Assembly (NCBI RefSeq): GCF_963082655.1
Contig: NC_081555.1
Location: forward strand, 178,779,442 to 178,843,441
DNA length: 64,000 nucleotides
Direction of reading: 5' to 3'
Origin: Stomoxys calcitrans
Taxonomy: Eukaryota > Arthropoda > Insecta > Diptera > Muscidae
The stretch's first letter is position 1; every line of letters starts with the position of its first letter. Shown piece by piece: positions 43,554 to 63,880 of the stretch. The translations under genes and the position numbers were made by a program. The notes beneath the pieces are model-generated. The model was not told the origin of the DNA. It did not search any database and was given only the letters and a program-made list of their open reading frames with translations.

Positions 43554-43592
43554 TATATAAAGAAAGACTGTAGAACTGTTCTTTCATCAGTC
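43554..43592 (+). promoter_or_regulatory. Core promoter of gene 4
   Basis: TATATAA at 43554 and GTTCTTTCATCAGTC at 43578-43592; the TCAGTC is an arthropod initiator match with A+1 near 43589. The span is 39 bp. A second CATCAGTC is in the leader at 43652-43659. The leader is ~83 nt. Confidence 0.75.
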
Positions 43593-43671
43593 TCAGTCAG
43601 TGTATCTCAATGTTTGATTAGTATTGCAAACATTTCCAAAGTTGCAAAGAGCATCAGTCTCGAAACAGGAT

Positions 43672-44823
43672 ATGATTTATCAGCGGCTCTTCTTGGGGCT
43701 GCTGCTGCTATGCGCAGTACTTGCTCTAAATCCTGCAAGTATGTCATTGTGCAATAAGGAAATTTGAAAATATTGATTTGTAAACACCTCGATCTTTTCA
43801 GGCGCCAAAGGGGCGAATTCTCGCTACAAGTTATATGGAAATAGACGCAGCGTAGGACGCTACGGGAACGATGTGGCCGAGGGTCGCCAAAATATGGACA
43901 TGTTTTGGTCGAAATTGGGCAAGACGACAACCACAACTACGACAGCAGCACCAACTACTACCACTATAACAACTCCACCTGTAACACCTCCACCACCACC
44001 TCCTCCACCACCACCACCACCACCGCCTCCACCGCCACCACCACCACCGCCTCCACCACCACCAACGCCACCACCACCACCGCCACCGCCACCACCACCA
44101 ACGACGCCACCTCCACCACCGCCTCCACCACCACCGCCACCTCCTCCGCCAGAGCGAAGAAGTGTTATCAACGGTGACGACAACCGCGAGCTAGAAGACG
44201 ATGATAATGAAAATTTCCTTATGCATGCACCTATGCGCGAACATGAATTCACACACCATAATGAGGGTCAGCAGAGCGACGATGAGGAGGATGATGACGA
44301 TAACGAAGTCAGTGCGACAGCCTCTAGCATGAGCGAAGATGGTGATAACGAAGATGATGACAATGATTCGGAGGAACGTCAATTGAGAGGTCCCGCAGGT
44401 ATAGGTCGAGCTGCCAATTCCCGTCGACGTCGTGGTCAGCGTCGTCGTGGTAAGGGTGGAAAACGCCGCCGCCGTATGGGCATTAAAAAACGTTTATCGA
44501 AGCGACGTGGTCTAAAAAGGAGTAGTAAACGCCGCCAGATGACTAAGGCTCAAATGCGTCGCCGTCGAGAGAAGATGCGAGCGTACAGGAAACGCCTTCG
44601 TCAAAATCAAGCTTTCAGACGCAACAAAAGCGCATTTCGTCGACAAAATTACCGGCGCAAAGGTCAAAATCGAGTGAGTCGCAAATCGGCCAAGCAGATC
44701 ATGCGACGCCGTCGTCAGAAAAGATTACGCCGCAAGCGCAGTAAATTAAACAATAGACGCCGTCTGCGAAAGTTCAAAAGGCGATCCCGTGGCCGTAAAC
44801 GCGTTGTTCGTGTAAATGCCTGA
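43672..44823 (+). CDS. Secreted polyproline/acidic/Arg-rich protein (gene 4)
   Basis: Exons 43672-43738 and 43802-44823, 362 aa. The signal peptide is MIYQRLFLGLLLLCAVLALN. A 63-bp phase-1 intron (GTATGT and TTCAG borders) gives a Ser at the junction. The mature N-terminal module is SRYKLYGNRRSVGR, then AEGRQNMDMFW, then KLGK at 60-63. Next come Thr 64-70, a Pro/Thr stretch and near-uninterrupted Pro from 81 to 139 with single T and TT punctuation, and an acidic region 140-213 (DDEEDDDDNE, EDDDNDSEE). From ~225 to the end about half the residues are Arg/Lys (KRRRRMGIKKRLSKRRGLKR; end RRLRKFKRRSRGRKR). There is no Cys in the mature part. The charge blocks could let chains associate with each other or with polyanions, and the Thr/Pro part is a likely O-glycosylation zone; both are inference. 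AATAAA at 44869-44874. Nearest relative is gene 5, its tandem copy. Confidence 0.9.
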
Positions 44824-44868
44824 TTATGAACCCAAGAAGCATTGAAATAGGAAATCCCATGATATGAA

Positions 44869-44874
44869 AATAAA
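44869..44874 (+). terminator. Poly(A) signal of gene 4
   Basis: AATAAA 46 bp after the stop codon. Confidence 0.6.
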
Positions 44875-44880
44875 AAAGAT

Positions 44881-45398
44881 AAAGAAAATATGCACCCAGT
44901 ATTGACTCATTTTTTAAAAAATTTTAATTTTAAGCAACATGAAAAGTCCCCCTCCAAATAGGTGTGCCATAATCGGTACAAACATAAGAGGAGATATTCC
45001 CAAAGCATTCATCAATCTGGACTTGGACAGGTACAGATGTTCAAAAAAAGTCGATGTTGCCTTTTCCATATTTGAATGCTTATTTCAAATGAGCAAAATT
45101 TTACGAAAACTTGTTGGCCGTCTCAAGGGGCTTCAAAGTTCGAATTAAAGGATTATTTGTGAGGGACGGAACCTTTGTTAATTTTAAAGGTTACTTTACT
45201 TAATACTTACACACACTTACTGTAACCAACACATTCATGTACTTTTGAATACATCCACCCTTTTCTATTAAACAAAGAAGATGGCCCTCTGATTGGTCCA
45301 GCGTAATAGCAGCGGTATAGTAATTATGGGGTTAATAAGTGTGTTAGAACCAAATCATGGTTTTTAGAGAATAATCTACAGTCTAGAGTTTCCACCGA
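44881..45398. other. Spacer between tandem copies
   Basis: About 0.5 kb with no counterpart in the other copy. The 69-codon ORF 44939-45148 has no signal peptide or domain and is probably chance. Confidence 0.4.
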
Positions 45399-60998: not shown

Positions 60999-62242
60999 TT
61001 TTTATACCCACCACCGAAGGATGGAGGTATATTAATTTTGTCATTCCGTTTGCAACACATCGAAATATCCATTTCCGACCCTGTAAAGTATATATATTCT
61101 TGATCAGCGTAAAAATCTAAGAAGACCTAGACATGTCTGTCCGTCTGTCCGTCTTTCTGTTGAAATCACGCTACAGTCTTTAAAAATAGAGATATTGAGC
61201 TGAAATTTTGCACAGATTCTTTTATTGTCCATAAGCAGGTTAAGTTCGAAGATGGGCTATATCGGACTATATCTTGATATAGCCCCCATATAGACCGATC
61301 CGCCGATTTAGGGTCTTAGGCCCATAAAAGCCACATTTATTATCCGATTTTGTTGAAATTTGGGGCAGTGAGTTGTGTTAGGCCCTTCGACTTCCTTCGT
61401 TAAATTGGCCCAGATCGGTTCAGATTTGAATATAGCTGCCATATAGACCGATCTTCCGGTTAAGGGTCTTAGGCCCGCAAAAGCCACATTTATTATCCGA
61501 TTTTGATGAAATTCGTGACAGTGAATTATGTAAGGCCCATCGACATCCTTCGTTAATTTGGCTCAAATCGGTCCAGATTTGGATATAGCTGCCATATAGA
61601 TCGATCCTCCGATTTATGGTGTAAGGCCCATAAAAGCCACATTCATTATCCGATTTTGCTGAAATTTGGGACAGTGAGTTGTGTTAGGCCCTTTGACATA
61701 TTTCTTCAATTTGGTCCAGATGGGTTCAGATTTAGATATAGCTGCCATATAGACAGATTTCTTGATTTATGGTTTTGGGCCCATAAAATGCTCATTTATT
61801 ATTTGGAACAGTGAGTTAAGTTAAGCCCCTTGACATACTTTTGCAATATCGCACAGATCGGTCCAGATTTGGATATAGCTGCCATATAGACCGATATCTA
61901 GGTTTTAGGTTTAGGGGCGATAAAAGACGCATTTATTGTCCAATTTGGCCGAAATCGGTCCAGATTTGGATATAGCTGCCATGTAGACCGATATCTCGAT
62001 TTAAAATCTTGGCCCCATAAAAGGCGCATTTATAATCCGATTTCACGATTTTCGAAATTTGACACAGTGACTTATGTTCGGCTTTTCGACATCATGTCGT
62101 ATATAGTTCAGATCGGTATGAGGTATATGAGTATAAGGTATGAAATTTTCACAGAATTTTGATGAAAGGTGGTTTACATATATACCCGAGTGGTGGGTAT
62201 CCAAAGTTCGGCCCGGCCGAACTTAACGCCTTTTTACTTGTT
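60999..62242 (+). repeat. Interspersed repeat family B, complete copy
   Basis: It starts TTATACCCACCACCGAAGGA and ends AAGTTCGGCCCGGCCGAAC then CTTTTTACTTGTTT. GGGTCTTAGGCCC-type unit starts near 61311, 61464 and 61617 give a 153-bp period. GTCCGTCTGTCCGTC lies near 61139. Confidence 0.9.
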
Positions 62243-62604
62243 TAATATTAAAGTAATGTTATATACATGTTATTTAACCCCTAGTTAGAAAATAGACCAC
62301 AACGATTAATTATTTAAATTAAAAAAAAACTAAAAGCAGTCCCTAATAAAAATATGTCTTGAGCTTTACAATATGCAAAACTGATTAATTTAATAAGAAG
62401 ATAAAAGATACAAATATCCATCATATAGGAAACTCTTTAAGAAAACAGCATTTGCATTTCGTGACTTCTTTAAAGATTCTTTTTAACATTTTTTTTTTAG
62501 TTTGTTTACATCGTCAAATCCCGTAGAACATAAACTTCTTTGGGATGACTGGGTTAAACCTCTTTTAGCATTCACTTGCTTTGGGAACGATTATGGTTGT
62601 CGTT
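62243..62604. other. 5' flank of gene 8
   Basis: A+T-rich, no gene seen. Confidence 0.4.
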
Positions 62605-62658
62605 TGCTGATTAATGACTGAGAAGTCAGACTAATGAAGAATTTTGACATGCTAGGGG
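62605..62658 (+). promoter_or_regulatory. Distal promoter module of gene 8
   Basis: TGCTGATTAATGACTGA (62605-62621) and TTTGACATGCTAGGGG (62643-62658), 77 bp before the TATA box. Confidence 0.65.
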
Positions 62659-62719
62659 CCAGTTAAACGAAAATTACATATCGGGAATATGACATATTTT
62701 TTAGTGAGGGATAAACTTG

Positions 62720-62757
62720 TATATATAGATTGATGGAAGAATGTTCTACCATCAGTC
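62720..62757 (+). promoter_or_regulatory. Core promoter of gene 8
   Basis: TATATATA at 62720 and GTTCTACCATCAGTC at 62743-62757, span 38 bp. The leader is ~73 nt. Confidence 0.8.
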
Positions 62758-62826
62758 GTATGTAGGCTGCAACGAACCAACAAATATTGGTTTTGTTTTA
62801 TTAACAACCATACTAGAGTATCAGAT

Positions 62827-63880
62827 ATGAACAGCAAACGAATTTGGTTTGCCCTATTGCTTTGTACAGTGGTTGTCCTGCAGTTGGCAGGTGAGTTTTA
62901 TCTCGAATATTTTCAAATGATATGATGAAGTTGAGTTTTGAACATAACGATAATTTATTTATTTTCTAGCTGCTAATGATCGCAATTGGGCTCGACGCCA
63001 ATATAGACTCTATGAAAGACCGATACAACCTATAGGGCGGCAGGGTTATGGATGGGACGACGAACGTTACAACCGTTTGTTTTTTAATAAAATGAACAAG
63101 TTCACAACAACAACTACTACCACTGCCGCGCCGACAACATCGCCTCCACCACCACCGCCTCCACCCCCTCCACCACCACCACCTCCTTCCATTCAACCAC
63201 CATCGCCGCCTACATCACCACCTCCTCCTCCGCCGCCTCCTCCTCCACCACCTCCACCTCCACCGCCGCCACCAACAACTCCTCCACCGCCGCCACCTCC
63301 ACCGATTACCGCTAGGTTACAAGGAATAGATTATACTGAATTAGGTGGCGAAAATGATCATCACCTGCAATATGATTTGGGATTTAGATCACAGTATTAC
63401 GATGACTTTGACGAAGATAATTATTTTGATGTGGGCCAAGGACGCAATAGCAACTATCTGAATGGAGACTGCGATGACTTCCCACCCATCAGAAATGTCA
63501 ATTCCTTCAGCAATTGGCGCTTACAACGCAGACGTCGTGCCCAAGAGATGCGTCATCGTCAAAGGGAGTACAATCGCAAACGACGAATCGCCCAAAAGGA
63601 ATTAGCTGCGAAACGTCGTGCAGTAAGACGAGAGCGTCTACAACGCCAACAGACCATGGCACATAAACGCCGACAAGAAGAGAGGAGAAGACGATTAGAG
63701 CAAAGGAAACGACGCATTCGACCTGCGAGTAACATAGGTCGAAACAATGTCGGCCTTGGCATAACCAACGTCCATAGCCATTCCAGATATCCTTATGAGA
63801 TGGGAAGAAGCATGCAAACTATTCCAAAACGTCAACGTTTAAGGCAAATACGTCGACCTCACAATGGAGGAAACCTATAA
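62827..63880 (+). CDS. Secreted polyproline/Arg-rich protein, divergent member (gene 8)
   Basis: Exons 62827-62890 and 62970-63880, 324 aa. The signal peptide is MNSKRIWFALLLCTVVVLQL. The 79-bp phase-1 intron has GTGAGT and TTCTAG borders. The N-terminal module is recognisable but changed: AANDRNWARRQYRLYERP, then IGRQGYGWDDERYNRLF and NKMNKF where others have KxGK. Thr 67-73, then Pro-rich 79-133 with SIQPPSPPTSPP and the conserved TTPP near the end. The acidic part is rich in Tyr and Phe (YYDDFDEDNYFDVG). The tail is Arg-rich but mixed with Glu and Gln (REYNRKRRIAQKELAAKRR, RRQEERRRRLEQRKRRIR), compatible with a charged helix, and it ends in a less charged segment with NNVGLGITNVHSHSRYPYEM. 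No canonical AATAAA is seen nearby. It is probably functional, given the conserved promoter and open frame, but it is the most diverged of the five. Confidence 0.88.

Follow-up and report, generated by a model that had tools for sequence, protein, structure and literature searches.

The window analysed here, 64,000 nt of the forward strand of Stomoxys calcitrans (assembly GCF_963082655.1, contig NC_081555.1, positions 178,779,442-178,843,441), carries five genes, G1 to G5, each modelled with a signal-peptide exon of 64 to 67 bases, a GT-AG phase-1 intron of 60 to 79 bases that splits codon 22 or 23, and an open second exon. The signal peptides were called by eye, as a hydrophobic N-terminal exon in all five. 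The start codons (43672, 46122, 53097, 55247, and 62827) and the final stop (63880) agree with the positions given in an earlier, sequence-only reading of this DNA. Scans of the 64-kb window for Rfam families (at the gathering threshold) and for tRNAs gave no matches. The gene models and their regions are as follows.

G1, 43672..44823, + strand: spliced model, exons 43672-43738 and 43802-44823, phase-1 GT-AG intron; 362 aa
G1 regions, + strand: Thr/Pro tract 43924-44151; acidic block 44152-44394; basic tail 44395-44820
G2, 46122..47265, + strand: spliced model, exons 46122-46188 and 46259-47265; 357 aa
G2 regions, + strand: Thr/Pro tract 46381-46608; acidic block 46609-46845; basic tail 46846-47262
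G3, 53097..54196, + strand: spliced model, exons 53097-53160 and 53223-54196; 345 aa
G3 regions, + strand: Thr/Pro tract 53354-53587 (longest run 38 Pro); acidic block 53588-53782; basic tail 53783-54193
G4, 55247..56335, + strand: spliced model, exons 55247-55310 and 55371-56335; 342 aa
G4 regions, + strand: Thr/Pro tract 55487-55714; middle block 55715-55942 (net -1); basic tail 55943-56332
G5, 62827..63880, + strand: spliced model, exons 62827-62890 and 62970-63880; 324 aa
G5 regions, + strand: Thr/Pro tract 63104-63304; acidic block 63305-63517; basic tail 63518-63877

All five genes encode the same order of parts: a signal peptide, a module of 38 to 44 residues, a Thr run, a Thr/Pro tract of 67 to 78 residues (47 to 67 of them Pro), a middle block, and an Arg/Lys tail. 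The earlier reading had claimed this order with an acidic block in every gene, and it holds throughout except for that block in G4; the middle blocks net -25, -24, -22, -1, and -10 in G1 to G5, respectively. G5 shows the greatest divergence, and it has the only cysteine outside the signal peptide, there being none in G1 to G4.

A predicted TATA/initiator core promoter is common to G1 to G5, with 32 or 33 bases from the TATA to a TCAGT initiator and a 16-base start block at all five genes (10 matches to the block in all). The promoters and the candidate elements upstream of them are listed below.

G1 core promoter, 43554..43592, + strand: TATA 43554; initiator block 43577-43592, one mismatch
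G2 core promoter, 46001..46039, + strand: TATA 46001; initiator block 46024-46039
G3 core promoter, 52976..53014, + strand: TATA 52976; initiator block 52999-53014
G4 core promoter, 55165..55203, + strand: TATA 55165; initiator block 55188-55203
G5 core promoter, 62720..62757, + strand: TATA 62720; initiator block 62742-62757
G1 upstream element, 43448..43489, + strand: TAATGA-like, then TTTGACCTGC at 43480
G2 upstream element, 45875..45916, + strand: TTTGACCTGC at 45907
G3 upstream element, 52857..52905, + strand: TTTGACAGGC at 52896
G4 upstream element, 55060..55101, + strand: TTTGACATGC at 55092
G5 upstream element, 62611..62652, + strand: TTTGACATGC at 62643

The motif TTTGACATGC is not enriched (6 matches versus 6.6 expected); what is notable is its placing, as five of the six matches lie on the same strand, -109 to -130 from the five predicted starts, in a composite pattern that was itself derived from these same genes. 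Nor is TGATTAATGA enriched (12 matches, 12 expected). Forkhead-like sites occur seven times on the gene strand in the upstream regions of G1 to G5 (sampled P 0.009), and all five genes were matched (P 0.002), for a pattern picked by eye as one of five scanned and with a both-strand expectation of 3.9; on these grounds we set the sites aside as a salivary clue and keep them as a lead only.

A whole-assembly search placed the family at no fewer than 13 sites, in two clusters on one chromosome, in a census that rests on one query, G3 exon 2, and is a lower bound. Three weak matches elsewhere align with little beyond the query's Thr/Pro part and were counted as chance. Outside the window lie six further complete genes (D2, D3, D4, B1, B2, and B4), one short copy, and one copy without a first exon, so that there are at least 11 complete open genes, and the two further copies look degenerate. 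G1 to G5 belong to a tandemly amplified stable-fly family; the cluster of five described earlier is real and too small, being a subset of the 13 places. All six complete outside genes have signal-peptide exons and standard splice sites, with the intron splitting codon 19 or 22, in models made by a script restricted to phase-1 introns and favoring GTAAG or GTGAG donors. D2 to D4 each have at least one cysteine, in a TTTPCP junction. The TATA/initiator spacing recurs in two of the six (D2 and D4) and is absent from the other four.

Pairwise comparison of the 10 G1-G5 pairs against 200 composition-preserving shuffles showed that the tails are homologous in all 10 (0 to 1 shuffle as good) and that the N-terminal modules are clearly so in nine (0 to 6), the exception being G2/G5 (15 of 200, not significant). 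Strong likeness of the middle block is confined to G1/G2; among the other nine pairs, three are weak (1 to 3 of 200) and six not clear (10 to 119 of 200). G2 is the nearest paralogue of G1, with a dN of 0.10 and a dS of 0.42 over the middle block and tail, in an ungapped codon comparison. Over the same parts, dN/dS values were 0.36/1.75 for B1/B2, 0.55/1.81 for B1/B4, and 0.42/1.57 for B2/B4, and dS was saturated in both D-clade pairs tried. G1 to G5 are paralogues, and dN is the lower value in every comparison that yielded an estimate of dS. These results bear on the suggestion that the genes are non-functional low-complexity frames, open by chance around CCA microsatellites, as the low complexity of the proline tracts, the family's absence from protein-collection search results, and the two degenerate-looking copies might lead one to suspect. 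That explanation is already contradicted by dN below dS, by the conserved splice sites and promoters, by homologous tails and N-terminal modules, and by the existence of eleven complete open copies, and we find it hardly credible.

With the polyproline removed, which puts proline-rich families beyond reach, G1, G3, G4, and G5 matched no Pfam family above the gathering cut-off, the sole match being YL1 for G3 at 18.5 bits (cut-off, 29.2). A masked five-member G profile found no PDB sequence at an E value of 0.1 and no relative in a protein collection, a search with blind spots, since it missed the stable fly's own copies too. Foldseek with a model of G4 exon 2 (pTM 0.28) gave no matches at an E value of 10. 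The Pfam, PDB, and collection searches covered only G members of the family. Within this scope, the earlier description of a secreted-type gene family without recognised relatives stands, and the masked search for a characterised family, run in part (four of the five proteins for Pfam, a profile for the PDB and the collection), did not refute it. A gene on the same strand 10 kb upstream, U2, is also of secreted type, with relatives from Stomoxys to Drosophila; it shares with the G family a signal exon, an acidic middle, and an Arg-rich tail and differs in having no proline tract. Common ancestry of the G genes with U2 and U3 was rejected, as the tails are not clearly above shuffles (best pairs, U2/G3 with 15 of 500 and U3/G3 with 20 of 500) and no start block lies at U1 to U3. 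The AlphaFold2 model of U2 is poor (mean pLDDT, 48.7).

The signal peptide, the nearby phase-1 intron, the Thr/Pro stretch, and fast-evolving genes recall the Drosophila salivary glue family of Sgs1, Sgs3, Sgs7, Sgs8, and Eig71Ee (PMC6352337), of which the G family might be a calyptrate member. The passages available on the Sgs genes, however, place the intron in codon 10 (Ala or Val) and describe the proteins as cysteine-rich (PMC9409817), whereas the G-family intron splits codons 19 to 23 and mature G1 to G5 carry zero or one cysteine. Where the long Sgs members have Pro/Ser/Thr repeats, the G family has a Thr/Pro tract of mostly pure proline, and it has a long Arg/Lys tail in addition. We therefore rejected Sgs membership on intron place and cysteines, two defining features, and regard it as very improbable, in agreement with the earlier reading, which saw no Sgs-like Cys tail in these genes.

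Across the family the middle block nets -17 to -57 in G1, G2, G3, D2, D4, B1, B2, and B4 and -10 in G5 and D3, so that 10 of the 11 complete members have a net acidic block (-10 or lower) directly before the basic segment. The tails, of 120 to 190 residues, net +33 to +103, and each of the 11 complete proteins has a positive overall charge (net +30 to +93; G1 to G5, +30 to +66). The term polyampholyte, used in the sequence-only reading, is thus half right: the middle block is net acidic in most members, and the whole protein is positive in every one. In G1 to G3 the tail carries roughly three times the charge of the middle block, and in G4 its charge dominates wholly. This does not support the idea that opposite charge blocks suit these proteins for self-association and makes a polyanionic partner likelier than self-coacervation.

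Our leading proposal, made tentatively and short of being probable, is that the family encodes secreted polycations carried on a polyproline rod that condense with polyanions to form a coat or cement. We infer secretion (from the signal peptide) as well as glycosylation, rod shape, condensation, and the use as coat or cement. The mature protein would start with a short module (G-clade consensus near RYRLYG..R...GR), followed by a Thr collar, probably O-glycosylated, and a polyproline II rod which, at 3.1 angstroms per residue, would span about 23 nm (G and D clades) or 35 nm (B clade). The cells of one gland may secrete the whole set together, with the acidic block shielding the tail during packing. 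Outside the cell, the rod-held tail would bind charged mucin sugars, nucleic acid, or acidic proteins, and this binding would condense them into a cross-linked coat or cement. Counting against the proposal are the lack of a net acidic block in G4, the absence of the promoter spacing from four of six outside genes, passages that report Lucilia cuprina to be without salivary glue, in a paper that also cites older Phormia regina work for one (PMC9880899), and adult sialome and genome papers on S. calcitrans, M. domestica, and H. irritans, in main-text passages of which nothing alike appears.

Stable-fly larvae live in dung and rotting matter, and the same layout could serve defence, with the tail as a microbe-killing or agglutinating effector, the acidic block neutralising it until processing, and the rod as a spacer. 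The very basic tails with their many dibasic sites, the acidic segment immediately before the basic one in 10 of 11 members (by net charge), tandem expansion with large sequence change, and the predicted helicity of the G4 tail (AlphaFold2) are consistent with such a role; yet the usual antimicrobial peptides are shorter than these tails, the rod would have no obvious role, G4 has no net acidic block and G5 and D3 just -10, and the four masked members submitted to Pfam reached the cut-off of no family. We consider this rather unlikely. A secreted-type polycation in a blood feeder could instead act in adult saliva by binding host polyphosphate, DNA, or heparan sulphate, or it could belong to semen or the egg coat, and the S. 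calcitrans genome paper leaves 24 salivary-biased transcripts unclassified and compares reproductive tracts (PMC7944917). Nothing seen ties the genes to these tissues, however, and the want of any family protein, the stable fly's own included, in the collection may speak against high expression in adult salivary glands or simply reflect escape from annotation; we judge a blood-feeding or reproductive role unlikely.

Returning to the secreted polycation on its rod, the rod itself may be under selection. The Thr/Pro tract measures 76, 76, 78, 76, and 67 residues in G1 to G5, 72, 73, and 74 in the D clade, and 114, 112, and 113 in the B clade, and is mostly pure proline, with a longest run of 62. 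This near-constancy suggests selection on length, with the caveat that in the G clade alone the tract (coefficient of variation, 0.058) does not exceed the N-terminal part in constancy (0.036) and exceeds the tail only slightly (0.066). In the AlphaFold2 model of G4 exon 2, most of the tract has a pLDDT of 77 to 91 without helix or strand, as expected of an extended rod, and the tail forms long helices with block pLDDT up to 97, in a model where the module and middle block are mostly below 50 (pTM, 0.28). AlphaFold2 is prone to drawing helices for charged repeats. Selection might set the polyproline at about 74 or 113 residues, so that pure polyproline would serve as a molecular ruler, a stiff stalk of 23 or 35 nm presenting a polycationic helical tail as a natural tethered polyelectrolyte brush or cross-linker in a fly secretion. 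We consider this ruler possible and on balance doubtful, the more so because in the G clade the N-terminal part is at least as constant as the tract and codons were compared without gaps.

If these readings hold, a livestock pest has at least 11 intact genes whose secreted products contain as many as 62 consecutive prolines, against at most 27 in human proteins (PMC3556072). Perhaps the loss of low-complexity genes during annotation has kept the family from notice. It would offer natural test cases for the translation of long proline runs, for polyproline spacers of set length, and for arginine-driven condensation in animal secretions, and the producing tissue would be informative about the biology of the stable fly.

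Protamines are short nuclear proteins. Like them and other arginine-rich chains, which phase-separate in vitro with anionic partners (PMC9705477), the G proteins are dense in arginine; they differ by their signal peptide and proline tract and, in most members, by an acidic block. A second analogue, compared by description and as an analogy only, is the tick cement protein Tick-GRP77, a disordered saliva protein reported to condense and then to mature into an adhesive gel, driven by its arginine and aromatic residues; it is described as glycine-rich with periodic arginine and aromatics (PMC11794139), whereas the G tails have only three to six aromatics, which counts against our mechanism. Consecutive proline runs are common to the G family and to human long-proline proteins, 91 of which have runs of nine or more, 42 being tied to DNA or RNA processing and 11 to actin (PMC3556072), and the translation of such runs is assisted by eIF5A (PMC4218817). 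In this comparison, which is with the human proteome only, the stable-fly runs are distinguished by their length and by their position behind a signal peptide.

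On the evidence of their sequences, five forward-strand genes of the Stomoxys calcitrans (stable fly) window, at contig positions 178,779,442-178,843,441, form one family. Their secreted-type proteins share one order of parts, namely signal peptide, N module, Thr run, Thr/Pro tract, mostly acidic middle block, and Arg/Lys tail.

G1, start 43672, + strand, 362 residues
G2, start 46122, + strand, 357 residues
G3, start 53097, + strand, 345 residues
G4, start 55247, + strand, 342 residues
G5, start 62827, + strand, 324 residues

In all five spliced models, the first exon is hydrophobic and 64 or 67 bases long, the intron is short, GT-AG, and in phase 1, exon 2 is open up to the stop, and a polyadenylation-like signal (AATAAA in G1 to G4, AATATA in G5) lies 38 to 53 bases 3' of the stop. 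Kinship was assessed by shuffling one member of each pair with composition kept (200 shuffles per pair). For the tails, 0 to 1 of 200 shuffles were as good in all 10 pairs, and for the N modules, 0 to 6 of 200 in 9 of the 10, the likeness of the G2 and G5 modules not being significant (15 of 200). Strong likeness of the middle block is confined to G1 and G2; among the other nine pairs, 1 to 3 of 200 shuffles were as good in three and 10 to 119 of 200 in six, suggesting that this block, which has a net charge of -1 in G4, is conserved mostly as a composition type. The closest relatives among the five are G1 and G2 (dN 0.10 and dS 0.42 over middle block and tail), and dN was below dS in every G comparison with estimable dS, although these Nei-Gojobori counts on biased, Arg-rich sequence are rough.

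The aligned regions upstream of G1 to G5 share a TATA box followed 32 to 33 bases on by a TGTTCTANCATCAGTC block. At ≤3 mismatches this block has 10 matches in the window versus 1.8 expected, a number reached by 0 of 100 shuffles, and the five matches with 0 to 1 mismatch are the five predicted starts; as the pattern was derived from these genes, it is bound to occur at them, and its rarity elsewhere is the sole test. Another element, a TAATGA-like motif followed by TTTGAC[AC][TG]GC, lies 109 to 130 bases upstream of each predicted start. Within the window the composite, which was likewise derived from G1 to G5 and is informative only through rarity elsewhere, occurs in these upstream regions alone, and its two parts taken singly show no enrichment. 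A tissue-specific switch common to the five genes is suggested by these shared elements.

The sequence-only reading had described a cluster of five; the five genes are borne out, but the family is wider. Searching the whole 1.07-Gb assembly with G3 exon 2 gave 17 matches, comprising 13 places taken to be family, one extra piece of one place, and three others, regarded as chance, that cover almost only the Thr/Pro part of the query. Four of the eight further places (D1 to D4) lie downstream on the same contig, with about 0.68 Mb from G1 to D4, and the other four (B1 to B4) lie 82 Mb away, at 96.49-96.56 Mb of that contig. Six of the eight (D2, D3, D4, B1, B2, and B4) are complete, with two exons and a GTAAGT or GTGAGT donor, as modeled by a script that required phase 1 and favored such donors; D1 keeps the module with only a short tract and tail, and no first exon was found for B3. 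FastTree support was 0.996 for the G clade, 0.985 for the B clade, and 0.914 for separating D from G and B together, with nodes inside G partly weak (0.53 and 0.83). Sequence evidence for kinship across clades is thinner than within G: at least 496 of 500 shuffles were beaten by the N modules in 5 of 10 pairs tried and by the tails in only 2 of 10. We take D and B to be kin of G because they share its order of parts and exon structure, because some pairs are alike in the N module, and because of the search E-values, to which low-complexity parts contribute. The TATA-TCAGT spacing is present in D2 and D4 and absent from the other four complete outside genes (D3, B1, B2, and B4).

Across the 11 complete proteins, the net charge is -57 to -1 for the middle block, +33 to +103 for the tail, and +30 to +93 overall. 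The tail is too positive for its own middle block to neutralize, which does not support the earlier proposal that opposite charge blocks suit self-association and leads us to favor a polycation that would condense with polyanions outside the cell, with the proline rod holding the tail away from the module. This mechanism fits an AlphaFold2 model of G4 exon 2, in which the tail is helical, the proline tract is extended, and the module and middle block are disordered. In vitro, Arg-rich chains are reported to form condensates with anionic partners (PMC9705477). Among other secreted-type genes upstream in the window, U1, with its Thr run, acidic stretch, and Ser and Lys-rich runs, is a possible polyanionic partner.

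16621-19187, U1, 831-aa secreted-type acidic protein, net charge -49
32450-33371, U2, secreted-type, acidic middle, conserved core near GAIMVPDGIIEIEGQSV..DEKTGK, Arg-rich tail
34031-34912, U3, three-exon gene, 245 aa, signal peptide, acidic and Arg-rich parts
3785-6181, 41770-42839, 49899-50252, putative LINE-type element pieces (by eye, ORF list)
9588-10013, putative mariner-like transposase frame (by eye, ORF list)
1426-2402, 11209-11798, 13085-13719, 14837-15234, 21600-22304, 22744-23507, 24986-25318, 27536-28477, 48214-48788, 58790-59190, 59912-60303, 61276-62033, tandem arrays

The many separate arrays have a period of mostly ~153 bases. U2 is 100% identical to a S. calcitrans protein in the collection, and at E 0.01 it is matched by 59 database proteins, all the named ones being from flies, including Drosophila; public names such as "SDA1 homolog" and "SETD1B" look wrong. 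U3 has no Pfam match.

The longest proline run is 14 to 62 residues in the 11 complete proteins; runs in the human proteome, the one comparison made, are reported to reach 27 (PMC3556072). Measured from first TTT to last PPP, boundaries that we set, the tract has 76, 76, 78, 76, and 67 residues in G1 to G5, 72, 73, and 74 in D2 to D4, and 114, 112, and 113 in B1, B2, and B4, lengths that are subject to assembler misjudgment of repeats. Its coefficient of variation across the G and D members is 0.046 (N-terminal part 0.067, tail 0.137, middle block 0.338), and in D (0.014) and B (0.009) it is the lowest of all parts. Counting against length selection, in G alone the tract value (0.058) exceeds that of the N-terminal part (0.036) and is near that of the tail (0.066). 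Codon agreement at shared prolines was about that expected from usage in seven of eight tract pairs tried (of 55 possible), G1 and G2 being the exception (42 agreements versus 26.6 expected). Tracts were compared without gaps starting at the 3' end, and a single insertion or deletion would likewise scatter codons; old divergence is the likelier cause, since dS elsewhere is ~1 or above, or saturated, in most pairs. Old tracts constant to 1 to 2 residues in D and B are unlike the outcome of free slippage, and we regard selection on rod length as probable, albeit from 11 genes, at 23 and 35 nm from a reported rise of 3.1 Å per residue (PMC3556072). A TTTTTTPCP junction is also common to D2 to D4; its one cysteine, directly before the proline run, is a possible disulfide site.

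The first reading, in which no named family was recognized, agrees with the masked searches. Pfam gave no passing match for the four of the five members that were submitted with polyproline removed (G1, G3, G4, and G5), and PDB gave none by sequence and no fold match with a model of pTM 0.28. A collection of 5.8 billion proteins gave no match to the five-member masked profile or to G4 residues 1-63 (six candidates). Not even the stable fly's own G-type copies were matched, though the collection contains U2; as the profile scores G1 to G5 at 319 to 385 bits in a local control, such copies would have shown had they been candidates. The look-up works by exact words and length and can miss relatives, and we therefore claim no lineage restriction. 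Among the literature matches listed, no title or abstract described such a family, and the sole match for Stomoxys and polyproline concerns a blowfly peptide.

The products are candidates for a cement, coat, saliva factor, or defense protein. The B1, B2, and B4 tracts hold collagen-like GPPGPP triplets. In the Drosophila Sgs1/3/7/8/Eig71Ee salivary glue family, the proteins are described as having multiple cysteines and the genes as having codon 10 interrupted by a phase-1 intron (PMC6352337, PMC9409817), whereas the stable-fly intron lies at codon 19-23 and mature G1 to G5 are nearly free of cysteine, in line with the first reading of no Sgs-like Cys tail; membership was rejected. Lucilia cuprina is reported to make no such glue, and for Phormia regina the paper cites older work that describes one (PMC9880899). 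The stable-fly family could nevertheless work in a glue-like manner, and a step from condensate to adhesive gel is reported for a tick saliva protein (PMC11794139).
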